From positions 68,715,549 to 68,779,548 of the forward strand of contig CM055099.1 in assembly GCA_029204225.1 (NCBI GenBank): DNA of 64,000 nucleotides. Direction: 5' to 3'. The notes beneath the pieces were generated by a model. The model was not told the DNA's origin, did no database searches, and saw only the letters and a program-made list of their open reading frames with translations. A program made the translations under genes and the position numbers. The DNA is from Diphasiastrum complanatum. Lineage: Eukaryota > Streptophyta > Lycopodiopsida > Lycopodiales > Lycopodiaceae. This document shows positions 1,029 through 22,139 of this stretch, in pieces (positions within the stretch are counted from its first letter, which is position 1; each line of letters opens with the position of its first letter).

Positions 1029-4000
1029 ATGGCATCTATAAATGCATATCTTTTGGATACTAATGAAAGGCTCAACAAAACTAACTATTCCATATGGAAA
1101 GTTAGAATGGAATCTATCATGATCATGCAAGATCTGATGGAAATTGTAAATGGTAAGGAGGGTGAACCTATTCATCCTCAAGAAAAAGCCAAATACATCA
1201 AGAGGTGCAATGTTGCACTACATTGCATAAAAATGAATGTTGCAAATGAACTCTTAAGAGAGGTAGGAGATTGCACTTCAGCTCAAGATGCTTGGGAGAC
1301 TTTGCAAAAGGTCTATGAATCCAAGAACCAAACTAGAATGTTAGCTTTGAAGAATCAAATCTATAGAAGCTATCAAAAGAAAGGAGAGAGTGCACATACT
1401 TTTGTCCTAAGAGTAAAGGAATTGAACAAAGAGCTAGCCTTTATAGGTGACCCTATCAAGGATGAAGAGCTTGTTCAACTCATATTGAATGGACTAAGCT
1501 TTGAATTTGACAATTTGGTTCAGGGATATGCAATTATGGGTAAGCTACCCATACTTGAAGAACTCCAAGGCACACTCATGGCCGAGGAATCAAGAAGGAG
1601 CCAAATGCAAGAGAGGATGGATAGGCTTTCCATCCAAGGTGGAGATGACCAAGCTCTCTTCACCAAAGGCAAAGGCAAGTCCAAAGGCAAAGGATCAACA
1701 TTCAAGAAGTCTACAAAGCTTGAGGATCAAGAAGGACCCCCAAAGGCATCTCCATCAACCACCAAAGTCAAGAAGGACAAATCAAAGGTGAAGTGCTACT
1801 ATTGTAGCAAGATGGGGCATTATGCCTCGGAATGCTTCAAGAGGAAGCAAGATCAAAGCCAAGCCAACATGAGCAAAGAGGAGGAGGAGGAGAGTTCACA
1901 TGAGGACTCTCTCATGATGTCCATATTTTCTTCAACAAGCTTCAAAGGAGAAGATCCTTGGTGGATTGACTCGGGTGCTAGTTCACACATGACTAGTAAA
2001 AGGGAGTTTTTCTCTTCTCTCTTATCTTATGATGGACCTATAAAGTCTATCTATATAGCAAATGATGAAGCTTGTAAGATTGAAGGAGCTGGTAGCATTC
2101 CCCTTTGCTTAGGATCTTCCAAAAAGATCAACATAGAAGGTGTTTTCTACATTCCTACAATAACAAAGAATCTACTAAGTGTTGGCCAAATGGTAGACAA
2201 TGGTTTCAATGTTGACTTTGCTTCAAATGAATGTTTTATCAAGAAGAAGGGTAAGATAGTGGCTAAGGGCACTAGACTTGGCAAACTTTATAAGCTAGAT
2301 GCATTTGTGGATACTAATGTTGTCATGTTGGCCGAGAAGAGCAAGATATCTACCTTTACTTTATGGCACAAAAGACTTGGACATGTCAACTCGGGTTCCA
2401 TGGAGGCTATGATCAAGGAGGAGTATGCTTTAGGCCTACCAAGGTCTATTGGGAAGGAAGACAAGGTTTGTGAAGCTTGTGCCTTATCCAAGGCACATAA
2501 GAAGGTGTTTCCTAACTCCATCACAAAGTCATCTCATCCTCTTGAACTCATACACTCGGATGTGCACATTGCTAGCACCAAATCTAATGGAGGTTCATCC
2601 ATGTTTTTAACCTTCATTGATGACTACTCAAGATATTGTTGGGTGTTCTTACTTTCTTTCAAGTCTCAAGTATTTTATACTTTTGTAAAGTTCAAGTTGT
2701 TTGTGGAAAAGCATCATAATCATAGCATCAAGATTCTTAGAAGTGACAATGGTGGAGAATTCATCTCCAATGAGTTCAAGGCCTTTTGTGAGGAGGAAGG
2801 GATCAAGAAAGAGACTTCTTGTCCTTACACTCCTCAACAAAATGGAGTTGCTGAAAGAAGGAATAGAACATTATGTGAATGTTCTAAGGCTTTAAGATTA
2901 GATGCTTGTTTGCCCAAATCCTTTTGGGGTGAGTCTCTTGTATGTGCAAACTACTTGATGAATAGGGTGTCTTGCAAAGCAATTGAAGGCAAAATTCCTT
3001 ATGAGATGTTGTATGGAAAGAAACCCAATCTTAATCACTTGAAAGTTTTTGGGTGTATATGTTATGTGCATGTGCCATTGGAAACAAGAGCCAAGGAGGA
3101 TCCATCTTCCACAAGAGGGATCATGCTTGGATATGCAAGCTCAAGCAAGGGCTACAAAGTCTATCTCCCATCCTTGAACAAATTTGTTGTTTCAAGGGAT
3201 GTCATCTTTGATGAACATCATATGCATATGCTTGAAGAAGGCTCAAGTGCTCCAACAATCAAGAAGAAGATGGCCGAGGAGCAAGATCTTGGTTTTGAGG
3301 AGGAGCTCATGGAGGAGCAAGCACCAAACCCACCTATCACACCAAGGAGATCTTCAAGGGCAAAAGTGGAGCCATCAAGGCTCACATATCAAGGCAAAGG
3401 ACAGCAAGTTGAGGGTATCTCATCCACTTCTTATGCTTTATCTAGTTTTGAAGAACCGTCTAATGTTGAAGATGCATTGAACTCCAAAGAATGGTATAAA
3501 GCTATGTTGGATGAGTATGATGCCTTGATTGAGAATGAAACTTGGTTGCTTGTTGAGAGACCTCAAAGGAATGTAATAGGATGCAAGTGGGTCTTCAAGC
3601 TTAAGTTGAATGCAAATGGGAGTGTTAACAAACATAAAACAAGATTAGTTGCAAAAGGTTATGCTCAAGAGAGAGGGATAGACTATGAGGAAACTTTTGC
3701 ACCCGTGGCCAAGATGGTCACAATAAGACTAATCATTGCACTTGCATCACATTTTGGATGGATTCTATGTCAAATGGATGTCTCTAATGCTTTCTTGAAT
3801 GGTTTTTTGGAAGAGGATATCTATATGGAGCAGCCACAAGGGTTCATCAAGCATGGAATGGAGAACAAAGTATGCCATCTCCAAAGAAGCATCTATGGCT
3901 TGAAGCAAGCCTCGAGATCTTGGAATTCAAGACTACATTGCTATCTTATTTCACTTTCTTTTGTTCAAAGTGAATATGATCCCACTCTTTACATTAAGTT

Positions 4001-4987
4001 TGATGATGTTGGTATTGTACTTTTACTCATTTATGTAGATGACATCATCATTAGTGGAAATAGTGTTGATGGTATTGAAAAAGTCAAGATAGATCTATCC
4101 TTAGAGTTCAAGATGGTAGATCTAGGGTGTCTTCACTTCATCTTAGGCATAGAAGTACTTAGAGGGTCTGATTTTATCTTTATAAGTCAAGTAAACTATG
4201 CTCAAAGTCTTTTGAAGAATTTAAGATGGAACTATGCAAAAGTGTTGACACACCAATGGAGCAAGATGTAAAAGTGCCAAATGAAGATGATGAAAGATCC
4301 TTCATGGACATCACTTTGTTTAGGCAACTTATAGGTTCCTTAATGTGGATCACTATAACTAGACCAGATCTTAGCTTTAGTGTATGTAGGTTGAGCCAAT
4401 CCATGCAAAAGCCATTGAATATCCATTGGAAAAAGGCTAAGAGGATTCTAAGATACATCTCGGATACATTGGATTTTGGGATTCTATATAGAGGAGATGT
4501 GATTAACCTTCATGCATTTAGTGATTCAAATTTTGCAGGGGACAAGAGGGATAGGAAATCAACAAGTGCCTATTCAATTTTCATAGGAGAAGGTGTGGTT
4601 TCATGGCTTTCAAAAAAGCAAGAAACTATATCTCTATCTTCAACCGAGGCCGAGTACAAAGCTTTGACAACCACTACAAAGGAGGTACTTTGGATCAAGA
4701 GATTATTGGTGGAACTAAAGATCATGGATTCAGAGGAGGCACCAATCATCTACAATGACAATATATCAGCCCAACACCTTGCATCTAACCCAATCTTCCA
4801 TGCAAGATCTAAGCACATTGAGATATGCCATCACTAAATGGTGCAAGCCAAGGAGATTGCTTTGGAGCATGTTCCAAGCAATGAATGTGTAGCTGATCTA
4901 CTTACTAAACCACTTCAAAAGACACCTTTTATGAAGTTCAGATCATCACTTGGAGTGATTAGTAAAGCAATGATTGAACCAAGCTAG
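1029..4987 (+). pseudogene. Ty1/copia Gag-Pol polyprotein with one frameshift and one nonsense codon
   Basis: This would encode the single polyprotein of a copia retrotransposon: particle protein, protease, integrase, reverse transcriptase and RNase H. Visible in order are a Gag domain, a CCHC zinc knuckle from about residue 256, the protease motif DSGAS with Asp314, the GAG-pre-integrase LWHKRLGH near 445, integrase Asp511/Asp573/Glu609 (the last two 35 residues apart), RT with Asp917 and YVDD near 1002-1005, then RNase H. The frame breaks near 4213-4225, where one missing base moves it to the 4226-4837 frame. There a TAA at 4835-4837 interrupts RNase H; the frame then runs on to a natural-looking stop at 4985-4987. 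The two lesions contrast with identical LTRs, so the copy is young but dead, or was copied in trans. Confidence 0.93.
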
Positions 4988-5683: not shown

Positions 5684-7455
5684 GTTATGAGATATAGATC
5701 CGGATCCCTCAATGGTATCTCATAAATTCCAAATCAGAAACCCGTAAGAACTATTTCTCTTTTATTTTAAAACCTCTACTTTTTAGAAATTTCTTAAATA
5801 CAAGACAATTGGATTGAGATTCGTATAATGCCTTCCAGTGTAGAACTAGGTTCTGAAAGACTGTTTAAGTAATATGAATTCATGCTAAGAGTAGGTGATT
5901 AACATAGACATATAATCAAGTATTGTGTTTGACAATTACTGGCAGAGTTAACAGATCTGTTCTCATAGATCTATTGGTTAGCTTAAAAGTGATTTGGATA
6001 TGGATCTAAATGTGGTGTTATACTAGTATAATTGAATTTTTCATCTAGACATTTAAGATTTCTAAATCATGAGCAATTTACTTGAGTAGTTGATTTACTC
6101 ATGTGGAAGTTAATTGGTAAAACGGACAGTGTAAAGAGCATTCACCGAAACTGTTGGTTTTGTGTGTATTGATTATAAGACACATAATTTATGAGTCATT
6201 CAGATTCATTAAATTGTGTGCATAGGATACTTATTTCTTAGATAAGTATTTCTCAGTTGAGAAATAGACGTTATTCATTAGTGATAGTATCCCAGTAAGC
6301 TCAATTGGATACCGGATCCTAATGGTTCCAAGAATGTTAAACTGAATTTTGGGAATTCAGCAGAACTTTGTAATCTCTAGACGTTGTTCTAGGAGATTGT
6401 ATAAAGTTTATATTGTTAGAGATGAATGTTATAATAGTCTTTATTTACTTGGCTGATTGTTGAATTTGGAACTCATAATCTGGTAGAGAATCGGATTGGA
6501 AGAATATTCTTGAGATCCAGTATTTTTCCTTGTGGGAAAGATTTCAGAATGATTCTTATATTTCCTGAGTTGTATGTTGTACATATACTCCAATATCTTT
6601 TAGTGATTAAGTATGGTATTAGAATCATGAGAATTATGATTGATGAATCATAAGATTCTAAATGTTTATGATTGACGGATCATAAATTGATACTTAAAGG
6701 TCATTTGAAGATTATAAGAAAATGTGAAGATTCTTAAGATAATGAGTAATTCTTGATCAAATGGGTGAGTCAAGGATTTAGATCTGTTATTTGAACTCTA
6801 AATTCCTTTACTCCAATGCATACTTGAGATTGTATGAATCTCACAGGCCTTTCCATTAAGTAATTGTTCACTTATGAGGAATTGCTTTCTTTACAGATTG
6901 ACAATGTAGTCTATAAGTGCTTGTGTACAAAGTTCAGTCTAAATCTCCAGTTTTGTAGGAGACATATAAATCTATTAAGATACGGATAGATGCTGATTTC
7001 TTGCATATGATGCTAGAAATGGGGCTGTTAACTCATTAGAGTAACTGCAATACTCTGGTTTGAGTTATGATTGTCTGAGACTTGATGGATCTCCTTAGAT
7101 GACTGAATTGTGGTATTTTAGAATATTTGAATATTCAAAAAATATTTGTACCAAGAAGCATTATTTTCTACAATAAATTGAAATGGAATTTCTTTAAATT
7201 TTGGATTTGATCTCTGAAATAAAGAGGTTAATTCACCTAGTGGTTCATGTAATTAGGATTACATGAAGGTGATGAACTTTGTTTTGGAGTAGATCAACCC
7301 ATTTGGAGGATTTATAGTTCAGTGTATCTTTTGGAATTTGAGTTAGTATTCAAGAGTAGGAGCAAGCAATTGAAATATTGTTGCATCTTTGAGTACTTAT
7401 TCAAATGGAAAGATCGGACTAAAAATAATGATTCATAGATAAGATTTGCAAGATT
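5684..7455. other. AT-rich stretch without a recognised gene
   Basis: No open frame of useful length and no recognisable protein fragment on either strand. The only structure noted is a short inverted repeat near 7243-7266, TTCATGTAAT against ATTACATGAA. Confidence 0.6.
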
Positions 7456-7490
7456 CATTATAGGAGTTTTGAGCACCAAAAGGGTCTTTT
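7456..7490 (+). repeat. Left terminal inverted repeat
   Basis: It matches the reverse complement of 16960-16994 at 26 of 35 positions by eye, including CATTA, AGGAGTT and CCAAAAGGG at identical spacing. Most mismatches are transitions. A weaker similarity lies further in, AAAACTCCCGTCGGG on the left against AAAACTCCGACCGAG on the right, at unequal distance from the ends. Confidence 0.55.
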
Positions 7491-7872
7491 GTCAAGATGC
7501 TGTTTTTGACTTTTCAACTATTCGACGTACATTGGCCCAGTTATATATTTACACCTGTGAAAGACCGTAACGTTGTTGCCGGTCGATTTCTTTTTTGGAA
7601 CTTTCCGGTCATATTTCTATACAATTCAAAACTCCCGTCGGGTAGGGTCCTGACTTGTGATTGGACCGTAATTGCTGCTCGTGAGTTTTCGAAGTGCTTG
7701 GGACCTAAACTTGTGGTTAAAGTAAATCTATTTTGATCTAACCATAGTTAGACTAACATATATGATTTACGAAAGACCACCAACATTTATTACAAATTTG
7801 ATAATTTATTTTCATACTGATTTAACTATATTTTGTTTCAGACTCTGTTGTTCATCTTCTTTTAGCTTTGCA

Positions 7873-9270
7873 ATGGCTTCCGAAAGCCGTAGACCACGAA
7901 GCAATATTGTATCAGTTTCTGTTTGTAATGAAAAAGACTCTGATGGCTCTTGGATACCACGTATCTATAGAAAATTTCATTGGGTTCTCATGCATCCCTC
8001 CTCAAGAGGTGTTTTTGGTAAAAAGAGAAAATCAAATATGGTTATAGGAATTTTTGGAAAGGTAGAATTTTAGACTTCAAAGTTTCACCCGGTGGTCGAT
8101 CCATTTCAGAGGTCTTGATTTAACATGTCTACATGCATAAGGAAATTAGAGTGGAAGGCATAAGTTCAAATGACAGACTCAAATACAATTGTAAGTTTTG
8201 GAGAATTTTTTGCTTTGAGCTTTGCATTAATCATTTAGACGTGTATCTGAGTATTTGAATGACATATAGTTTTATGGATTTGTGCAGATTTGTATCCATC
8301 AAACATAATCGAATGGCAACCTATACAATCCCTTGTCGACATCATGGACATTATTCATTCTGATATTGATCTTCTGCAATACAAGAACCACTCCACGAGA
8401 TCACTTTTGGATTCTTGTATTTTCTTCTATGATTCATTTTACACACCATCCAGTTTAGGAGGAAAATTAGAGACGATATCATTACCCTCTTTCTCAAGCG
8501 AAGAATGGATTCCTCCATATTCCCCCATAGCAGAGAGCTTCCGATCAAGGTTTCTTATGGACATTCAAAACTGTATGAAATATAGCACAGGTTCAAAAAA
8601 TAATAGATTGCACTGGTTTTTGCCTATTGCAATTTTTGTTGAATGTAATATTCGTAAAACAGTGACAATGTTTATTTGTAGTGATTTAACAGACAATATG
8701 TTATCAAGCCTCCTTGATGATCATTGGGATAAAAAGAGGAATGGCAATATCGAGTGCATAGTTAATAGATCGTCAATGAAATTTAGATATCTTATAGAAA
8801 AACAAGTGCTTTCTTTAACATTTTATTATAGAAGATGGTCCAAAGTTGGCAACGGATGGAAGCATTGGATCAGGATTTTACAGTGAATCATCAAGATCAA
8901 ATAGAAATTCAAGTGAGGAAAAATAATTCTACTCTTACAACAATTGAGGTGGAAGAAGATTGGACACTCGATCACATTCGATCAGAGCTTACATTGCTGC
9001 AATATGATATTCCTAAACACTTCTGTTTTTGAGTCAACGAGAGATTGGTAGGTGTATGTGTATTTATTCCAGTACACATTTGAAATGACTTTCAATAATT
9101 TTATTTGAACATGTTTTAGTGTTTTCGGTATTGCAATATTTCATTTGACATAATCTCAATGTTGATATTGTTTAACAAGTTTCTTTGATGTACAGGTAAG
9201 GCCAAGACAAGAAAGTCGCATAGAGTGCAAGGACTTAAATAGAAGCATAGAAATTGTTGAAACCACATAA
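7873..9270 (+). pseudogene. Unknown protein with C-terminal ubiquitin-like domain
   Basis: Three exons are supported: 7873-8190 (ends in phase 1, donor GTAAGT), 8288-9047 (acceptor TGTGCAG, ends in phase 0) and 9196-9270 (TAA). About 384 codons result if lesions are ignored. Lesions are a frameshift in an A-run near 8020-8024, TAA at 8121-8123, a frameshift near 8810, TAG at 8829-8831 and TGA at 9030-9032. The last ~73 residues, from 8901, look ubiquitin-like: strand IEIQVR, then TTIEVEEDWTLDHIRSEL, which lines up with strand 2 and helix 1 of ubiquitin. No C-terminal Gly-Gly is present. The N-terminal ~300 residues match nothing I know. It converges on the H3-Ulp1 gene, with 250 bases between stops. 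Exon joins rest on phase agreement, not on transcripts. Confidence 0.55.
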
Positions 9271-9520
9271 ACATTGGGATGATAGACGAGCAACATCAAT
9301 GTAGTTTTTCAAAAAAAAAAAAAGAATACAAAGAAGTCTCAAATGACTTCAAGATTTCATCAAGCAATTTGTATTTAGTATTTTGAAAAATGTACATTGC
9401 TTTTGAAATCGTTATAATATATTTGTGGCATTCAGTAATAGCCCACTTTCTATTTGCCTATCTATTAATCTATGGATCATCATGTGATGATATATTTCTA
9501 TGTGTCTGTCAGAACTATAT

Positions 9521-11349
9521 TTACATTTCAATCAAAGGTGCCTGAGGCATATCCTCGAGCACTGTAACCTCATCCACGGATCCTCTGGCAGGTTCATCCG
9601 AGGCACCTTCATGCTTGTAGGGCCTTGCACATGATAGTAAAATTTCCAGCATTTCATGCCGATACTGATGAATCGCATTTGTTGATACCTCAGGATATTG
9701 GAACTGCAAAAAAAAATATCGAGTGTATGTATGTATTAGCCAATGTTTTAAAATATATAAATTCACAAAGTTAACAATATATCATCAGAATACTGGAACA
9801 TTGAAAAAAATACCTCACGGATACTAGCATCTGGAGGTTGCACCATATACCAATCCAAGAACGATTTACCATCCGCAGCTAAAAGCATAAAAAAAAATCA
9901 CAACGAAAAGTTGTTAAAGTATAATTCAATATATTTCTAAACTACATGCCATCATGCAAATAAAATACGTAAAAAGATTCCTTTTACCTTTGCATCAACA
10001 ACCTCTATGTTGGTATTTACAACCAACCCATCCGGCCTGGGCAATAGCCCCACCATCCTTTTGTACATGGATTTAATCATGGAATGGGTGGCATGCAAAG
10101 AATTCATTGTCATGCACACAAGTGTGCAGCTTCCAGTCGAATCCACTTTCATGGATATGATGTGCACACTCCAATGTTTGCTGCCAGAAAGAGACAAGCA
10201 ATGAATTACTAGAATCTATAAGAGTTTCCAAAAGAAAAATCTTACAGAAAACAGATATTACAAGAAGAAACTATCTTACTTTGAACAGTATGGGATAATG
10301 AACATTGATGCCTCTTTGCTGGTGTGCCTGAAGAGCCTTCTGGCTTTCCTCTCTTTATTCAACAGATGCCCAAAAAATGGAGATACAACAAAAATCTCCT
10401 TCGTGACTGTATATGTATATTTATGTAGATAGTATGCACAAGCAGATTCAACTACTGTGTCTGAGATATATGAGGTCTTTTCTTTTAGCTCCCTACAATG
10501 CGGGTCTTTGATATGCATTGCAAAATTAATATCGTCTATACAGAACATAAACTCCCCTCCGAGATCATCTATTTTCTTGGCTATATACAGGTCAAAATCA
10601 ATGTACCTCTCAGAATAAAAAAATGTGTCTTTAGGTTCATTCGGAAGTCTGATATGCAACTCTTTATCAGTTGCATCAACATCAGAAACAATCATGTCTA
10701 CCACTGTATTTAGGTCATCCTCATGTATAGAAGGAGAATCGTGTTATTGAAGATCAGGGGTTACGGGAGGACTCTCAACTAGTGGAATTGCGGATGTACT
10801 AGCCAGATCTTTTCTAATGGGAGGAGGTGAGGGTGAAGAGCTGGGAGACCTGGGCTTGGGTTGCGAACGCTTGGGCTGTGCTTGCTTTCTCTTTTTGCGG
10901 GGTGGGACAGGCCCTTTTTCAAGAGGAACTTGCCTCTGTGTGAATCCTGACTTAAAAATGCTGTCATAGGTGTTTCAAAGCCTCATGACAAGAAGCATGT
11001 CCTTGGGCATCAGTGTCACCCTCTTGCCATGAATGGAGCACATCATCAAATCCTCAAACAATTTTGTCTAGAAATCCTCGTATGCAGTATGGAGGGCCTC
11101 CAATGCAGTGATATTCCACCTCACTGCATAGGGCAGATGGGTGGTCATGTCTTGTGTAACCTCTCTCATAGCCCAATAGAAGGCTGCTTTCGGGATCAGA
11201 AGTTTGCTGCTCCTCTGCAAGGCCCTGATGTCCCTCAACCATGGACAACTAGGTCTACCGCATCTTTGCGAACGTACGGGTTTAGATGTCTGGGGACGGG
11301 ACGGATGAAAGAAACTGGTAAGCCTAGCGGTTTGTTTCATCCAAGCCAT
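9521..11349 (-). pseudogene. Histone H3-like domain fused to a Ulp1/C48-like peptidase domain
   Basis: Exons 11349-10280, 10180-9969, 9878-9814 and 9703-9521 join in phase to 510 codons including the stop. Residues 1 to ~125 are a divergent histone H3: start MAWMKQTAR against H3 MARTKQTAR, then LLIPKAAF, REVTQDM and KRVTLMPKD against KRVTIMPKD. A Pro/Ser/Lys linker with PPRKKRK, a likely nuclear signal, follows. From ~215 on the pattern is Ulp1-like: a hydrophobic IIPYCS before HW (His359, Trp360), then MNSL where the family has the catalytic Asp before Ser-Leu (Asn383 here), then VQPP where the Gln precedes the active Cys. No Cys is seen at the expected place. In-frame stops: TAG 11070-11068, TGA 10977-10975, TAA 10746-10744. 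The frame is otherwise unbroken. The H3 call is firm, the peptidase call moderate. Confidence 0.68.
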
Positions 11350-11418
11350 TGAGGCCGAATATCTATACTACGCGAGGATAGAGACACAACAGAAGAGACA
11401 CTGAGAACTCTAACCGTG

Positions 11419-11572
11419 ATATCGCTACGACGTGAGAGAGTGGTAGAGTCAGGCGGGGAGAGGCAGGGGCTCACGTGATGGCGATATTGAGGAAGTCAAG
11501 CTGATATCGCTACAACACGAGAGGGTGTAAGGAATGGGCATGGAGAGGAGGTCGCTCGTGTGATGGCGATAT
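11419..11572. repeat. Four copies of a ~20-bp motif, alternating orientation (left cluster)
   Basis: Copies are at about 11419 (forward, ATATCGCTACGACGTGAGAG), 11470 (reverse, CTCACGTGATGGCGATATT), 11504 (forward) and 11555 (reverse). The shared core is ATATCGCYAY followed by a CG-containing segment and GAG. Orientation alternates strictly and copies lie 34-51 bases apart. Confidence 0.75.
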
Positions 11573-11689
11573 CACGAATGCATTTCGTATGGATGCAATC
11601 AAACGTGCTAGCAAATTATGCGAAAACCTGTACAATCCCCGAGAATGGACTTATAGGGGAGAAAAATTGGCACTTGTGAATACCAGTGA

Positions 11690-12050
11690 CATGTGGCCCA
11701 GTCAATAGCTGACATGTGGAACTACACGTCTGTATACGCACGTGTGAAACTGCACGTCTGGATCAACACGTGTGGGAAACCACGTGGAGACACGTGGCCA
11801 AATGGATCAGTGACATGTGTTCTTGCACGTATAGGCTCACACATGTGGTCACGTGGCCCAATCAGTACCTGACGTGTGGGACCTACACCTCTATATCCGC
11901 ACGTGTGAAACTTGCACGTGTGTCCACGTGGTCCAATGGTTTAGTGACATGTGTTCTGGCACGTGTGATCTTGCACGTATGGGCACATGGGCGAATGGCA
12001 GATTGACGTGTATTGTAGCACGTGTGATCTCACACGTGTGGACGGTTGTA
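11690..12050. repeat. Array of CACGTG / ACATGT palindromes in ~30-bp modules
   Basis: At least fifteen CACGTG, CACGTGTG or ACATGTG words occur in 360 bp. Five diverged copies of a ~30-bp module can be aligned, starting near 11690, 11790, 11850, 11925 and 11984. Each reads roughly CACGTGGCCCAAT, a variable stretch, then TGACATGTG. CACGTG is the plant G-box core. The open frames across this stretch are by-products of the repeat, not genes. Confidence 0.75.
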
Positions 12051-12213
12051 CTACGCGCCATAGATCTGATCTGTTGTTGGATCGACGAGTGTACGGCTTG
12101 GATTTTCTTGGTTTTAGCTAAATAAATTTTGTTTGATCAGTTAAAACATTTTGCTAAGTTTTGGATTTTCACTCCCTGTATCTCACAGTGTGTGAACAGT
12201 TCTTTTTATTTGC

Positions 12214-12365
12214 AGTATCGCTACCATGCGAGAATCTTTCAAAGATTCTAGACGATCTAAGATCCCTCGCATCATTCCGATATCAGGTCATTCGCCAATA
12301 TCGCCATCACGCGAGGAAGTCCTGATTGTCTTTTAACTCCCTGCCACCCCGCGTCGTAGCGATAC
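12214..12365. repeat. Four copies of the ~20-bp motif (right cluster)
   Basis: Copies of the motif at 11419-11572 are near 12214 (forward, TATCGCTACCATGCGAG), 12265 (reverse, diverged, CTCGCATCATTCCGATAT), 12297 (forward, ATATCGCCATCACGCGAG) and 12350 (reverse, CGCGTCGTAGCGATAC). Both orientations occur, and the last copy ends ~26 bases before the ATG at 12392. Confidence 0.7.
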
Positions 12366-12391
12366 TCAACCATATTGGTCATACTTTCTAG

Positions 12392-13523
12392 ATGGCCGCG
12401 TCATCCTCTAATACTTTTGATTCTGCTTTGCACGCCTTCCTCGTTGAATCCGGTGTTGGTAACTACATAGGTCACTATAAGACGTATTTCAATATGTCTT
12501 TTGATATTGAGAGGTTTGGATCAGAACATAAATCATATTTTCCAGTGTTGTATAAGGAGTATTATGAAAGTCTGAATCAGTCTATGTTGATCATGGATAA
12601 TCTACGATTCATCCATTTCCATGACCTAGTACTTGCCCAACCATCTTCAAAGCAAAGCCACGACCAACGATTCACAAAAATCGTGAGTGATTTTAAACGT
12701 GTGGTCAAAGAATTCGAGGACTTCACAAATCTCGACGGTGATGATGATCTACGTGCTTCTATTGATTACAAAGACGGAGATGAATGGATGGATGGGACTG
12801 AAGCACTGTAGTCAATCATGTTTGAAAGCAGGGCATACCAGGCAAATTTGCCCAATGAGGAGGAATTTCTGAAAATCCAGAGCATATATGTGTCACAGTC
12901 TTTGGAAACTAGTCCATCCAGTGCTTCGACGACCATTGTTGCTGGTCATGATCTACATACTGCTGCACTTATTGAAGCTGATGAGCGTGATCTGGTAGGT
13001 AAATTTGGTTTTATCTTAATGAGATTTTTATTCAAATATAGTCATTTTGTTTTACAAGACATGTGACCTTTGCTCATATTTACAAGCTACTGTTGAGGTG
13101 GATGCCTTTGCAACAAGGCAAGGATATTTGAGAGAAGGTCAGGGATCACAACAAAGGGATTCATCCCTATCCAATTATTTGAAGTGCTTTGTAAATAAAG
13201 AGATTTGCATTCATCATAGCAAATTTTCTTCAGATGCTGCGACAATAATAATGGCAATTAAAGTGTTATCCTATTTCTCGAATGGGCATAAATACCCTCC
13301 GAATACATATAAAATTATTTTTGTGAAGAGAGACATTGCCATAAAAGTGTTTGGCTATGTAGCTGAGGAAGTTCTGAAAAGGTCTTCCTCCTTAGCTATT
13401 TTCTCTGGATACATTGACTTGAGCAAAAGAAGATCGATTGATTTTCTAGATCCATATGATAAAAAAAAATTTCTTCATGACCACACAGCAAAGCTGATCA
13501 TTAAAGACAAAGAGAAACAATGA
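12392..13523 (+). pseudogene. Unknown acidic protein of the TIR unit
   Basis: Two exons: 12392-12998 (donor GTAAAT, phase 1) and 13087-13523 (acceptor after TTTACAAG; stop TGA). They join in phase to 348 codons including the stop. TAG at 12809-12811 interrupts an otherwise open exon 1. The N-terminus, with FLVESGVGNYI and a following helix-rich stretch to about residue 60, has the rhythm of a SAM-like or other small helical domain, but this is weak. The middle is acidic (DGDDD, DGDEW). The C-terminal ~120 residues are lysine-rich with no motif I recognise. It starts from the shared regulatory region and converges on the transposase-like gene, with 73 bases between stops. Confidence 0.5.
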
Positions 13524-13596
13524 TTTTGCCTTGCATTGTACTACACATGATGCGATATAATACATATACATTTTTCGTCTGATATCATGAAATTTA

Positions 13597-16304
13597 CTAT
13601 GGGTTGACTCTTGCATCAATATTATTTTCGTCTACAAATTTGCACGCCTTTCTGAATTTCTGATAATTTGTTGATATAGTTTTATATCGGATTTGAATAC
13701 GCTTGTAGAACCATTGAAATAGCTGGATGATGTAACTATTTTTTTGAGATGTTCCACCGTGTTGTGTATTTTGATGAAATGCTGCTCTGGCTTGCCAATG
13801 CGATTTTTCCATTCCTTGTGATGACCAAATACTTAGACTGCCATAAGCTTTTGCAAAAAATGATGCATGATGTCGTGAAATGTGCTGCAATATCAGAGAT
13901 ACAAATATTGTCATATTAATCATTTTAAATTTAGCATATGTGCAATGAGATTATAAATCAAAGAGTTAGTTATATTGAAAAGAGATTTACCATATAATGC
14001 ATAATATGATCTTCACCCCAGACGTCTTTAACTGCATCCACAAACTAAATTGTTGATTTCTCAATTAGTAGGACATCAGTATCAGATAGTTTATTTTTTC
14101 TGAGCAATTTGACCATGCTGTCAAGCTTTGTCCAGACTTCAACTTTTTTAATCCTCGTTGTTCCTTTTTCTTCAAAATCCTTTGTGGCATTGAGTACATC
14201 TATCCAAATTGAGTACTGGACTTTAGTTGGTTTTCCAGAATGATTTGATAATAAACGACGAGCTTTGGATCCTCCTATACTTGGTTTGCATGGGATGTTT
14301 CCTGTTTTTCCTTAAAGCTTCTCATCCTTTTGTATTTTAGCGTGTCCTTTATGAAGTCCCGCTTTTGATAAAACTTCTTCCAATCGAGCTATTGCCTTTT
14401 TGGCTAATGACTCTGGCTTAATATTCCAAGCAAACCAAATATGAAGCTATATCAATTTTTCGATATTCTAACCTCTCCATGTAGTGTACAAATGTGAACA
14501 TTTTTAAGCAGAATCGGTAATACTGGTTTCCAAGTCGGATCTTCTATATCCCTTGAAACTCTCGTGCTCTTCGACATGTCATGTGTAATTTTCATGCAAT
14601 AGAGGCATGGATTTTTTGAATTTGCTCCATGTGAGACGTGGAACAAGCATTTCAACGACTTCAGGTCTCCAGCCAAATGCCATTCCACCTTAAATTCACC
14701 TATTCCAAGAACATTGAGTGGTGTGTCGCTCATATGATTCTTAATTATCTCTGGATATTCTGTTTTACTAAAAATCCAAAATAGAATGTCCTGATCTTCT
14801 TTTAAAACGTAAAATCATGAACTAATTTAGGAGAATTGAACTCAGACCTATAATAACAGAACAATATTAACTTAAAACACAAAACCATTAATTCTTGAAA
14901 TGAATTAGTTGCTAGTACTCAATAGAATAGATTTAAACCTGGAAAGCTGCCAACCACCAAATATTATTTTCGGACTGCACACTGAAATCAAGACTCTCCG
15001 AGTTTATCGTATTGCTTAATGCTCCATTCATAATTGTAACACTAACCCTTTCCAGCTTTTGTCCCTTTATTACTTCTGATTCATCTAACTTGAGAACTAA
15101 TATCAATTTTTCAACACTTTCATTTGTGATTCCATAAAACTTTACAATAAATCTCAGTAAATGATTCAGATCTACAAACATATTGTTGGTATAATCACAT
15201 GACAAAGTGCCATGTTTTGAGTTATAAATTTCATTTATATGGTAAGGAATACCAATGATGTTTTGCAAATCCTTGTTTAACACATCCCTCTCTAATTTGA
15301 TTTGAAAGGGCCGAGGAATAGGAAATTTTTTTATATGTACTTGTCCAAATGCCTCTTTGATAATTTTAAACATTGTGTCATATGCATCCCTGCTAATACC
15401 AGAATAATCACATGCCCCTTGTATCAATTTTCGGTCAATGATCTTGCCGACTTCGCCCATAAGGGCCTCTGCAATCTTGGACTTGATTTGAGAATATCGT
15501 TGATTTCCAAGTAGACTCGTTGTTGACTTGGCTGTAAGTACTACACTCAAAGACTTTCCAATCATGTCCTTGTCTTTCAGATTTTCATTGGTGACTAAAG
15601 CTAATCTACAAAAGAAAAATAAGATTTAGAAAAAAAACAATTCACAACCATTGAGTGCTAGATGAAACAAAACACATGAATAGTTTAAAACATAATCTTA
15701 CTTGAAAGCATATATTCTTTTTTTCCGTTGGCCCCCACTTGTTGAAAGCTCATCAATACTTTTTAAAATAACTCTTTTTTGCTTATTGTTCAGTATTTTC
15801 TTCCGTAATGTGTTTACTTCTACATGTATTTGACAATATGAGGTACGCAATGTTTGTACAATTAGTTTCATATTGTTGGTTGAGGTTTAATATAATATCT
15901 TGCAAACGAGAATTATCTATCTTCAAGATTTCATTCTCTTCTTTTGTTTGCAAAAAAATAGTTCCTCTTTCTCGGTAGTCAGTAAGCAAACCATTCAACA
16001 TATTTTCCAAACAATGGATTTTTTTCATTGAATTTCTAATGCCATAACTTTTCAATCTTTCACAATAACCCAATAGACCATTGTGTCCTTCACACAAAAA
16101 CAGTATGAGTTGTGTGATCGATCTAAAATTTGGATGTTGCATTGAGCTTGGATCAATTGGATACAAACTTCCATCAACCCATAGATCACAATGTTTCCTG
16201 TCTTCCGTCCTTTGGTGAGCTGAAAAGGTGGATCCTTTCAGATTTTTTCTCGACAGTGGAGCATATTCTGTGGGAAGATCAATATGGAGATGATATTTAG
16301 ACAT
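13597..16304 (-). pseudogene. Transposase-like protein, RNase H-fold type suspected
   Basis: Exons 16304-15702, 15605-14939, 14790-13991 and 13884-13597 join in phase to about 786 codons once two frameshifts are allowed: near 15872 (one base gained or two lost) and near 14464 (one base lost). In-frame stops are TAG 14449-14447, TAA 14314-14312 and TAG 14047-14045. The N-terminal part has a coiled-coil stretch. The rest has the order expected of an RNase H-like transposase: KLDES (~15080), GDLK (~14664) followed by CLYC (~14600), CTLHGEVR, and later QGMEKSHW (~13810) with an acidic residue. Spaced D...D...CxxC...E in large repeat-family eukaryotic proteins supports this, but I cannot name the superfamily. 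It is the best candidate for the mobility enzyme of the unit. Confidence 0.5.
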
Positions 16305-16959
16305 CTTAATAATCGATAGATTAATCTAGTAGAAAACCAACTTGTTATATATCTTGTAAGCTATTAAAACTCGTCTTAATTAAAAAAAAAAAATTCATTG
16401 AAAAAGTTTGAAATGACCTTGGCGCTCTTTTTGATCCATCACACTCCATATTTCTTGCTTGATATGCAAAATCAATGCTTCGCAGTTATGAGCAAAATAA
16501 GCAAAATATTTTTTCAATAGATGTGTGTTGAAATCGCAAATTTTTGAATTGCAAAAGTTTGAAATAACCTTACCACTCAATTTGATCCAACACACTCCGT
16601 ATTTTCAAAATTGCAAAAATTTAGATTCACGTTGGCGCTCATTGTGATCCAAAATATTCAAAGTTTCTTACCATGATTTTCAGATCGATAAGACTGTTTT
16701 TCATTGATGTGAACGCTTTGAGTAGATGAAAAGAAAACTCTGATGTGCAATACGATTTGCATTTACATGAGAAGTTATGTTAGTTAATGGTAGAAAATAG
16801 AATCTTGAAGTATGGACCCCACGCATTGCGGCTACCCAACTTCCAGTTAACTACATACGTTACTAGTGAGGTCAAGTCATCGAAGTTGTGTGGGCAAACC
16901 AAAAACTCGGTCGGAGTTTTAAAATCCGACGATTTTTTCTCTCTTACGTGGCATTTCTT
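16305..16959. promoter_or_regulatory. Right-end noncoding region of the TIR unit
   Basis: This should contain the promoter of the transposase-like gene that starts at 16304. It holds three diverged direct repeats (16400-16660) and a short inverted repeat GTCGGAGTTTTAAAATCCGAC near 16912-16932. No coding potential is evident. Confidence 0.4.
16400..16660 (+). repeat. Three diverged ~50-bp subterminal direct repeats
   Basis: Copies near 16400-16455, 16551-16600 and 16611-16655 share the order CAAAAGTTTGAAAT, CCTTGGCGCTC or ACCACTC, TTGATCC and CACACTCC. Repeats just inside the inverted repeat are typical transposase-binding regions of DNA transposons. I found no matching set at the left end. 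Confidence 0.6.
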
Positions 16960-16994
16960 AAACAGCCCTTTTGGGCCTTGGAACTCCTGTAATG
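16960..16994 (-). repeat. Right terminal inverted repeat
   Basis: The reverse complement begins CATTACAGGAGTT and contains CCCAAAAGGG, matching 7456-7490 at 26 of 35 positions. It lies just outside the promoter region of the transposase-like gene, where an element end is expected. Confidence 0.55.
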
Positions 16995-17545
16995 AAGGAA
17001 TAATTTCATGTTTTCTTTTTCCCGTTCTGAGGACAGAACCTATTTAAGAGAGGAAGAATGTTACGGCCATATTCGGTTAAGGACCTAGAATAATCCTAAT
17101 ATGGTAGTCCGGCCCTCCAGTATTCGAGATTATTGGTCACGCCTGGATTTTATTCCACATCGTGGCCTGTTGGGGACTAATGACCTTGAGAGGACCCAGA
17201 CACTCTAATTGAGACATATGGAGTAGTGCATGTACGTGTGACTGATATAGGCAGGAGGTATGCATGAAGAGTTGTGACCTATTTATAGTTGACCTGCATG
17301 GGAATTGCATGTGCTCATGCACACGATCCTACTCTCCATATATTGAGGTACTGATTATTCCGTTGACGACTTGGTCTAGGTTACCTGATGAGCTCTTCTC
17401 CTCTTGATGTCACATTGGCATGGCTTGGGGGCTAGATCCAGGAGGATTCTCCAGGAGGGATCCAGGTTTGGTTGGGTGGTTTTGCTCCACAGTCTCTCTT
17501 GTGTTTTCCTATCCTCATCTTAGGAGTTTGTCCCCAGTGGTCTTT
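16995..17545 (+). repeat. Gypsy 3' end and LTR-like segment
   Basis: A purine-rich run ending at 17058 is followed by TGTTACGGCC, the look of a polypurine tract and LTR start. The preceding stretch, with Leu-Arg-Thr-Glu-Pro-Ile readable near 17028, resembles the tail of a gypsy polyprotein. A TATTTATA box lies near 17279. No second LTR is present, so the right limit is only the point where RT coding begins. Confidence 0.4.
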
Positions 17546-19822: not shown

Positions 19823-21493
19823 TCACTTTGTAAAGCCTTGACTGCAGATATTAGTAGTCCCATTTCCAGAGGCACTCTGAGTTTCCGTTCTTTCCATTCC
19901 ACTTCCACCCATATCAATTTCATGAAGAGGCGTTGCAGGCGCATGCCCTACAAAGAGCCCTACATGTCCTAGAAGCTTGTCTTTCCTAGAGAAGGTGGTA
20001 CCACATGAACATTGCCATTTGTCACGTCCACAATGTTTTTCATGCGTCTTTAGATCTGCAGCCACAGAAAACTTTTTGGTCCTGCACTTGGTACATGTGA
20101 GCATCTTTGGGCAATGACTTCTTCTGTAGTGATTTTTCACACACAGCATCGTCTTCAAAGGAAGAAATTTTCTATGGTTTTTGTTCCTTTTGCAACCAAG
20201 ATATGGGCAAGAATATCTTCTTGGCTTTCTTAATGATGGGTCCTGGGAGGACTTATCTGGTTTTGTGAGAGCTGCAACCGTCTTATACTCATCTCCATGG
20301 CCCCTCATGTGCATTCTCAAGTTTGCGTCCCTCTTGAAACCTTTTCCACATATTTCACAAAAGTGAGTATGCTCTGCTAGAATCTCAATGGCTTCTAATT
20401 CAATCAACTCATAAGAACCAGGAGGTAAATTCTCAGCTTCTCCATCATCTTCATCTTCCTTATAGACACCTCCAGAATCCTGATCTTTTGAAGATGAATT
20501 AATCTCCATTGAAATGCTCGACACGAAAGGATTTCCAACACATAGAGCTATATTTTCTTCCTCAAGGTTGATAGTCCCATCCCCACTTGTACCTAAACTG
20601 ACAGCAAAAGAACCTACAAGAGAGTTGCCAGCAGTAGTTTCAAGCGAGCTTCGAATGGTGCAGCTTGAAGCATGGCCTCCATGTGCTTCAAACAACTGCC
20701 TACCAATCTCTGGTGATCCATCTAATCTAGTCTTGACTACAACGGATTCAACCCCTGAGTTGTTTTCTCTTCCTCGATCTACAGAGGAATTGAATCTACC
20801 GTTGCCAGCAGAGATTCCGAAAGCAGTCCCAAGTGAACTCGGAGGTCCATTGTACTGAAAGAAAGCCATGTCTGGTGAGGATGTTGATCCAAAGTGACTC
20901 CTCTGATCGGACAGAGGATGCTGAAATTGTTGATGTACTTGTGGCAGCCACCCTGCAGCTGCTGTTACCAACTGAGAAATAACTGTTGCAATTCCTGCGG
21001 CTGTTGTCATCTGCTGTTGGGTTGCAGAAGCATTGGACATATCCCCTTGCGCAATGAGCTGCACAAGTGTCTGCAAGTGCCCTATTTTCTGCTGGAGAAG
21101 CAAGAGTGTCGTCATGAGTGCTTGTGAGGAAGCATCAGCCACCGGTGAGGGGGCCCTTGCTGATTCCTGCAACCCGTGCACCAATTGGGCACTCAAAATG
21201 GGACCGGAACTGCCCATACCAAAATCCACGAGCTGGTGAAGGCTTATCGGTTTACTAGCAGCATTTGAACCTACGAGTCCTTGGGGCTGTTGACGGGATT
21301 GCGGGATAAGGTTTTGACCAGCAGCCTGTGCATGAGAATGAGATAGAGATGCACCACTGAAACTAAGGCCAGTGGAATCAGAAGGTTGCTGGTTATGCTG
21401 AAAGGAACTATAAGTCGTAAGCTGCTCACCCAAGAAGGAGAACTTGGAGGCATCGCCGCCATCAGAAGAGTATCTAGAGGTAGAAGGATTCAT
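19823..21493 (-). CDS. STOP1-like: STOP1/ART1-type C2H2 zinc-finger transcription factor
   Basis: A single open frame of 556 residues. The family are nuclear regulators of proton and aluminium tolerance in plants; that role is known for the family and inferred here. The N-terminal ~370 residues are Ser/Gln-rich with a leucine/glutamine helix ([18 protein letters not shown]). The zinc-finger region begins at Cys379 with [18 protein letters not shown], the conserved first finger. It is followed by [46 protein letters not shown] and [18 protein letters not shown], the order seen in STOP1 proteins. Arabidopsis STOP1 is ~499 residues, so this one has a longer N-terminus. No lesions are seen. The start is the first Met of the frame and no intron is needed in the coding part. 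Confidence 0.93.
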
Positions 21494-22139
21494 CTTTCAA
21501 ATCGTGAGAGTTTCTTCAAAGTAACTGCGCACGCACAGCAGTTCAAACTTCAAACGAGTGGGGGCGAGGCCTTGTACAGCGAAATGGCGGATACCACAGA
21601 AACAAGATCTGGAGATTACTACATGTGAAATAGCATATGAATGCCTTGATTGCCAGTAAAACGGAAGTTAGAGGCATCCAAGTTGTAACAGAGTTTCGAA
21701 GAGGAGTACGATTTACAATTTAGATTATTGAACTAGCTAGCTTGCAAAGATCCCACGAGCAAAAGTAGCGAAAACCAACCCCTGGAATAATTGTCAGATT
21801 TCTTTTCCCTCTGATAAACTTGATTAGAAAACAAACATTAGCATGCGCTTCCTCTAAGCTTGTGGTCATATACTACTAGAAAAAAGGACTGAAGAGATTA
21901 TCTAAGGGGTCTTTTTCTTCCTTGATCTGGATTTCTATGATTAAGAATGATTCGCGGTCAGATTTGAGTATGTTTTTGGCACAAACAGACAATATCAGCC
22001 AATCTGACTAAATCACAAAGCCCACCTCCTTATCTACCCACTGACCTTACATAGCTGGCATGAATGGACAATGATGAATAAACGGCCTCCGCAATATGGT
22101 GGAAAAGTTGTCTCAATGGATCCTGTCACAACCAAAAGA
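21494..22139. promoter_or_regulatory. Upstream region of the STOP1-like gene
   Basis: Noncoding sequence directly upstream of the start codon at 21493, expected to hold the 5' UTR and promoter. No clear TATA box or intron boundary could be fixed by eye. Confidence 0.35.

Follow-up and report, generated by a model that had tools for sequence, protein, structure and literature searches.

A transposon with an H3 gene has a published precedent: in the fungus Pyrenophora tritici-repentis, a hAT element contains an H3-like gene (H3L) of unknown role (PMC3538342). In plants, some Arabidopsis VANDAL elements possess an Ulp1-bearing anti-silencing gene that acts on non-coding motifs of related elements (PMC13317346). 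Three other groups of DNA transposons enter the comparison. Spy (PHIS) elements have a PIF/Harbinger-like transposase and insert in AAATTT with no target duplication (PMC4482050), Kolobok elements have 5′-RR ends and a TTAA duplication (PMC9587614), and CACTA/En-Spm elements are transposons with terminal inverted repeats (TIRs) that carry an accessory gene beside the transposase (PMC4158355).

Here we analysed a 64,000-nt stretch of the Diphasiastrum complanatum genome (C8:68715549-68779548; hereafter the window). Positions 7456-16994 of the window are one decayed copy of a high-copy TIR DNA transposon family, and this element inserts without target duplication. Like the Pyrenophora hAT, it is a TIR DNA transposon spreading an H3-like gene in many copies; the fungal element, however, has a hAT transposase and a separate H3, whereas in this plant element H3 is fused to Ulp1, both in the window family and in a diverged family (famB). 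No hAT family appears in the Pfam tables for the window gene, nor among the families listed for the relatives of gene 4. With VANDAL elements that carry Ulp1-bearing VANC genes (KIU/Kaonashi), the element shares its nature as a plant DNA transposon, an Ulp1 accessory gene and non-coding motifs; VANDAL elements differ in being Mutator-like and devoid of TIRs, and their anti-silencing has been demonstrated, whereas here we infer it only (PMC13317346). The available part of the VANDAL paper contains the word "histone" 0 times and mentions no H3. Among the open-access papers listed by our searches, we saw none that describes an H3-Ulp1 fusion borne by a transposon, a transposon lineage that retains H3, or the transposase group to which gene 4 belongs.

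The element and its copies

The inverted repeats that bound the unit are identical at exactly 26 of 35 positions, as the sequence-only reading of this DNA had claimed, and the words CATTA, AGGAGTT and CCAAAAGGG stand in register. Over 31 nt, the left and right end regions match at 25/31 positions at best, a score attained by 0 of 200 mononucleotide shuffles (maximum 22). Open frames between the repeats show the four genes in the proposed + - + - order (Table 1), with the outer genes reading inward and genes 2 and 3 diverging from a repeat-dense stretch, also as proposed. The non-coding sequence that separates genes 2 and 3 contains 11 CACGTG palindromes, compared with a mean of 0.09 and a maximum of 2 in 500 shuffles; six other 10-kb stretches contain 10 to 12 of them in five cases and 4 in copy L017. 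The intron phases had been said to agree at every testable join. Within the subset of joins inspected, two read cleanly and the exon 2-to-3 join of gene 4 is not clean in the window copy. All four genes are broken in this copy: gene 1 has a stop, gene 2 has three in-frame stops, gene 3 has a stop and has lost ~397 bp, and gene 4 has frameshifts and stops.

Table 1. Features of the element (positions within the window)
Feature	Position	Strand	Basis and remarks
Left terminal inverted repeat, starts 5′-CATTA	7456..7490	+	26/35 identical to right repeat
Gene 1, approximate span, broken here	7873..9330	+	Open frames; relatives in famB, famC
Gene 2, histone H3-Ulp1 protease fusion	9521..11349	-	Open frame; Pfam; three in-frame stops, Cys stretch lost here
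Ulp1-like part of gene 2	9521..10743	-	L017 Pfam match; catalytic His/Cys motifs in other copies
H3 part of gene 2	10975..11349	-	Pfam; tail MAWMKQTARLTSF in window, MARTKQTARLTSF in 6/11 rows
Non-coding stretch, 11 CACGTG palindromes	11601..12060	.	Between genes 2 and 3; tandem repeats
Gene 3, acidic protein	12392..13523	+	~397 bp missing at 12705/12706, one stop; famB relative
Gene 4, transposase-like, several exons, broken here	13600..16304	-	11 relatives; Asp, Asp, CxxC, Glu motifs
57-nt repeat, three copies near right end	16397..16666	.	84% and 72% identity to first copy
Right terminal inverted repeat, finishes TAATG-3′	16960..16994	-	Genome matches

The host assembly (1.74 Gb, 5176 contigs) was searched for further copies with the same ends, as the sequence-only reading had suggested. 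All of the 40 best left-end matches (out of 839 first-look candidates) start at window base 7456, and all of the 40 best right-end matches (out of 851) extend to 16993 or further. The 40 best matches to the transposase exon, out of 2735 first-look candidates, are all 96-100% identical, and the 40 best to the H3 exon, out of 527, are 92-100% identical. These lists include the window copy itself and its segmental duplicate L009 (C8:68213448-68223440), an inverted duplicate of window 7233-17222, flanks included, that lies ~0.5 Mb away and is 99.88% identical. Among 20 10-kb stretches fetched around the transposase exon, the left end is present in 8, the right end in 15 and the H3 exon in 10 (inverted in one); parts are absent from others owing to insertions, deletions or the 10-kb fetch limit. 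Judged by equal structure, L010/L011, L017/L021, L018/L019 and L022/L026 are duplicates of one insertion each, as are the window and L009. Left and right ends are also paired at two further places, 9881 and 9894 bp apart, which we counted as one insertion because their flanks are identical. The window copy is shorter than the 9.88-kb copy because its gene 3 lacks about 397 bp. That the inverted repeats surround unrelated genes by chance has next to no probability: this is refuted by the ends shared among many copies, by the end pair 9.88 kb apart elsewhere and by the empty sites described below.

Several observations concern the surroundings of the element. Short left-end-like sequences (CATTAGAGGAGTTTTGAGCTCCAAAAGGGCC, CATTAGGAGAGTTTTGAGCTCC) lie beside copies L010 and L011 (at 2099-2131) and also L030 and L032, and are probably non-autonomous relatives. 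Within the window, positions 1029-4834 contain nearly complete Copia-type open frames of 1080 and 221 codons, and much of the remainder consists of other retroelement pieces, both by our reading of the frames. A 557-codon open frame at 19826-21496 on the minus strand has zinc-finger-like motifs and is reminiscent of plant STOP1-type factors. Rfam and tRNA scans gave no matches.

Target sites and the transposase-like gene

Following a further suggestion of the sequence-only reading, the flanks of five insertions were joined without the element and searched in the host genome, and matching empty sites were found for all five. Target duplications, which the same reading had proposed to look for, are unexpectedly absent from four of these insertions (0 bp in the window, L014, the C1:63916820 copy and L017), and the fifth (L024) has 1 bp. 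The best empty-site matches cover 309/309 bases for the window insertion (two read, gapless), 199/199 for the C1 copy (two read, gapless) and 299/300 for L017, length unchanged (two read, gapless); for L014, most of 40 listed matches equal the query part in length, and three read base by base are gapless. For L024, 39 of 40 listed matches have 299 bases for 300, and the two that were read lack one C at the junction, which indicates that this insertion gained one base. No repeats adjoin the ends in the flanks of the copies read. The four duplication-free target sites are CC/AAC, ATT/CAA, TAT/TCT and TTT/AAG. By our reading of the sequence, the joined flanks of L014, L017, the C1 copy and a C4 copy each form one continuous Copia-type protein frame.

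Bases 3 to 5 on the left side of the junction disagree with the empty sites read in three of the five insertions (window, L014 and C1), the rest being ~95% alike. These differences may reflect flank damage upon insertion, or chance.

The gene 4 product had been called transposase-like; it has relatives and three conserved acidic motifs. The read-through protein has 11 relatives with E values of 1e-113 to 2e-55 (8000 best candidates scored), and a profile search listed at least 40. An organism is named for two of the relatives only, the fern Adiantum nelumboides, in alignments that cover just 13-14% of the query. All 11 relatives share D404 (KLDE), D501 (DLK) and C521/C524 (CxxC); the third acidic motif is GMERSHW in two of the 11, the others ending earlier, and GMEKSHW in the window gene. 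This motif order fits a D-D-E transposase, and we infer from it a catalytic role for gene 4 in cutting and joining the ends. Pfam matched no transposase family in window gene 4 and none among the 25 of 33 weak families listed for the 11 relatives; one gene 4 relative, P0007, gave six weak families, none of them a transposase. A solved-structure search with the gene 4 profile returned no relative, its one match at E=0.43 being a designed protein. A viral origin found no support: IMG/VR contigs gave 14 pattern matches to the transposase profile, 0 of them confirmed, and Pfam matched no capsid or polymerase in the four gene models.

Mutator-like and VANDAL elements make target duplications of about 9-11 bp. 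With 0 bp in four insertions and 1 bp in one, no duplication of 3 bp, 9-11 bp or TTAA was seen, and these were rejected. Mutator-like/VANDAL membership was rejected on the absence of duplication and of any MULE from the Pfam tables (25 of 33 of the relatives' families listed). Kolobok does not fit, because this element has no duplication and its ends begin with CA. Spy (PHIS) is alike in its duplication-free insertion, seen here in four of five cases; it was rejected because the four targets are not AAATTT and no PIF/Harbinger-like transposase was seen.

It is unlikely, in our view, that the element is a very diverged CACTA/En-Spm or Kolobok-like member that has lost its usual target duplication. 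CATTA does resemble CACTA, and a CxxC follows the second Asp of gene 4; similar motif orders occur in other transposases. The 0-bp outcome in four of five insertions speaks against such a membership, as does the failure of Pfam to match a transposase in the window gene or among the 25 of 33 families listed for its relatives. CACTA/En-Spm elements share with this one the TIRs, 5′-CA.TA ends and an accessory gene beside the transposase, but their ends are CACTA...TAGTG, not CATTA...TAATG (PMC4158355), and the missing 3-bp duplication and the missing Pfam transposase also set this element apart from them. The suggestion that the unit is a new type of transposon stands in part: no Pfam transposase was found, and ends and duplication length fit no superfamily tested, a comparison that extends to those superfamilies only. 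A distant tie of gene 4 to a known superfamily is conceivable in the face of the Pfam results, the ends and the duplication length.

The histone H3-Ulp1 fusion and genes 1 and 3

Gene 2 had been read as a fusion of an H3-like and an Ulp1-like domain. Pfam recognises both in copy L017 and is silent on Ulp1 in the window copy. Read through its stops, the window gene contains an H3 fold (PF00125, E=5.1e-19). In L017, read through one stop and with exons joined, gene 2 is one protein matching Histone (5.5e-23) and Peptidase_C48 (1.2e-5, 25.7 bits for a cutoff of 20.7), and a solved-structure search with its H3 part gave H3 and H3 variants as best matches. A single 382-codon open frame in L028 spans H3, the linker and the start of the Ulp1 part. 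In the window gene, the stretch with the catalytic Cys is absent and Ulp1 has no Pfam match; the 288-aa Ulp1 piece of L012, taken alone, gave no C48 match in Pfam and no protease in the solved-structure search. L012, L014, L017, L021 and L024 each have the catalytic His (HW) together with the catalytic Cys (SCG or NCG). Elsewhere, Cys has become Tyr (L010, L011), His has become Arg and Cys Tyr (L013), His has become Asn (L028), or His is kept and the Cys stretch absent (window, L009). Judged from these domain matches and motifs, gene 2 is a real fusion of an H3 fold and an Ulp1 protease.

The N-terminus of a normal H3 reads ARTKQTARKS. Across the 11 H3 tail rows (window, L009-L015, L017, L021 and L028), Lys4 is retained and position 9 is Leu in every one, and ARTKQTAR is exact in six. 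Between ARTKQTAR and the first helix, 8 of 10 rows have no Lys, and the remaining two (the window and its duplicate) have one.

A search of 5.8 billion proteins for H3-Ulp1 relatives returned five proteins, all with a Pfam Histone match and none with C48. Two of them, P0004 and P0005 from Haematococcus lacustris (799 and 847 aa), have a C-terminal H3 fold preceded by sequence that we take, from its motif, to resemble TnpB/Fanzor nucleases; a solved-structure search with P0004 gave histones only, among the 60 of 180 matches listed. They possibly represent another mobile element with an H3. P0002 and P0003 (835 and 819 aa) also have a C-terminal H3, which in P0002 is 40% identical to that of the element over 153 columns and has RW..TALEALH and IHGKRVTLMPKDM in common with it.

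Neither gene 1 nor gene 3 has a Pfam match. The label "ubiquitin-like" given to gene 1 thus found no Pfam match behind it; what remains is a weak ubiquitin-like hint at the end of the protein and a PB1 hint (E=0.19) in a diverged relative.

Diverged families and possible roles of H3

Using P0007 as query, we obtained 117 matches in 51 scored stretches of the same genome (19,995 first-look candidates) and read three of these loci, termed famB, famC and famD. We count famB and famC/famD as two lineages besides that of the window family.

All four genes, whose co-occurrence elsewhere was a point on which the sequence-only reading had made its case depend, are present in famB (L063+L060+L062, C23:32422200-32436499). 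Its transposase is 47.5% identical to that of the window family over 880 columns, or 58% over the 702 codons compared, its gene 1 36% over 337 columns and its gene 3 27% over 287 and 40% over 132 columns. The H3-Ulp1 gene matched in four pieces; the locus also holds another, partial transposase and a fragment of gene 1, and is thus rearranged. Read over frameshifts, famB gene 2 matches Histone at 3.5e-12 and C48 at 20.5 bits, just below the 20.7 cutoff. Its histone core is retained, as are the Ulp1 motifs with His (QHWSLN) and Cys (QQKDAFSC). The H3 tail, MMARTKSIARVTNYY, retains Lys4, and position 9 is Val, as read from one copy. The left end of famB reads CATTAGAGGAGTT; a right end was looked for at the locus and not found.

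The famC element (L061) has 38-nt inverted repeats that are 97% complementary, with ends CATTAGGG/CCCTAATG, and its flanks (30 and 23 bases) show no target duplication. Its transposase is 33% identical over 748 columns (a value of about 39% was also obtained), and its gene 1 40% over 105 and 31% over 194 columns. Its H3, matched by Pfam at 1.2e-26 across a frameshift, is unfused, with a stop after RRLRRERN and a long proline-rich front part; no Ulp1 match and no recognisable ARTK tail were found in famC. The gene in the gene 3 position resembles gene 3 by eye only, with no match at E 0.01. In famD (L064), we found a transposase and an H3 resembling that of famC, and nothing within its 10 kb that matches genes 1, 3 or Ulp1.

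Codon position 3 differs most in all eight gene comparisons between the window family and famB or famC, and position 2 differs least in seven of the eight, the exception being famB gene 3. In the famB transposase (702 codons), the differences at positions 1/2/3 amount to 0.30/0.20/0.56; in the famC H3 (61 codons), they amount to 0.43/0.25/0.66. The alignments were built on amino acids, a procedure that biases positions 1 and 2 towards agreement, especially in short, weak alignments. For the transposase, the position-3 excess is hardly in doubt. Within the recent burst, the same test detected no constraint: shared variants number 58:57:63 and singletons 222:211:218 at positions 1:2:3 (17 copies pooled, 7 to 17 per segment, with duplicates L009, L011, L019, L021 and L026 removed beforehand). 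The variant counts indicate that window-family copies decay freely after insertion.

Gene capture is common in plant transposons, and H3 and Ulp1 could be pieces of host genes taken up by transduplication and without function for the transposon. All compared window-family copies decay freely, which suits this idea, and the fungal hAT with its captured H3-like gene is a precedent (PMC3538342). We nevertheless consider such capture quite improbable: H3 occurs in two diverged lineages, whose transposases are ~58% and ~39% identical to that of the window family, with a position-3 excess, and in famB the histone core has been kept along with the His and Cys motifs of Ulp1. From its presence in the diverged families with this excess, H3 looks like a kept part of the transposon lineage rather than random cargo.

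Our main reading, to which we assign a probability of roughly 0.75, is a dead TIR transposon in which gene 4 would act on the CATTA/TAATG ends without stagger, gene 2 would serve against silencing and genes 1 and 3 would be accessory. Having bound the CATTA/TAATG ends, the gene 4 protein would cleave them and connect them to target DNA; joining with no or almost no stagger would leave no target duplication. The H3 fold of gene 2 would become part of a nucleosome on the element or imitate one, perhaps where the CACGTG palindromes cluster. The tail of this H3 would be able to carry the active Lys4 mark and, with Leu at position 9, unable to carry the silencing Lys9 mark, while the Ulp1 part would strip SUMO from silencing proteins. 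Genes 1 and 3 would supply accessory proteins. Taken by itself, the anti-silencing role of gene 2 is a tentative proposal. It does not cover an older role of H3, which may have been different, since famC has neither Ulp1 nor an ARTK tail; such an older, common role may have been, for example, targeting or assembly of the transposition complex.

Alternatively, H3 could serve transposition itself as a structural or targeting component, by guiding the complex to particular chromatin or aiding its assembly, and not act against silencing. That famC has an H3 not joined to any Ulp1 suggests an older role independent of the protease, and four of the five examined insertions read as lying in retrotransposon coding sequence, in a sample chosen for repeats. 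Such a role would not call for the altered Lys9 in the tail, and we regard it as rather unlikely.

Returning to the anti-silencing proposal, the mark is evaded by an H3 that has lost Lys9. A Met or a norleucine there even traps the methylating enzyme (PMC5030085); the available part of that source makes no mention of Leu or Val and does not directly support trapping of methyltransferases by Leu. A bolder suggestion, possible though doubtful, is an undescribed plant DNA transposon superfamily with CATTA ends and no target duplication, in which an H3 variant is a core, long-kept component that became oncohistone-like in one branch. There, a fused H3 with Lys4 kept and Lys9 exchanged for a hydrophobic amino acid (window family, Leu; famB copy, Val) would escape or trap the H3K9 methylation machinery, and this would keep the element active.

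Plants silence transposons largely through H3 Lys9 methylation. If the proposal is true, an H3 of the transposon's own, long kept and altered at Lys9, would attack the silencing mark directly, and the resistance of transposons to histone-based silencing would become testable with one protein. It is unusual for a TIR element of high copy number to insert without duplication, which is relevant to how strand transfer works. Finally, the transposase relatives are mostly unnamed, with two from a fern, and the repeat annotation of seedless plants may therefore miss a whole group.
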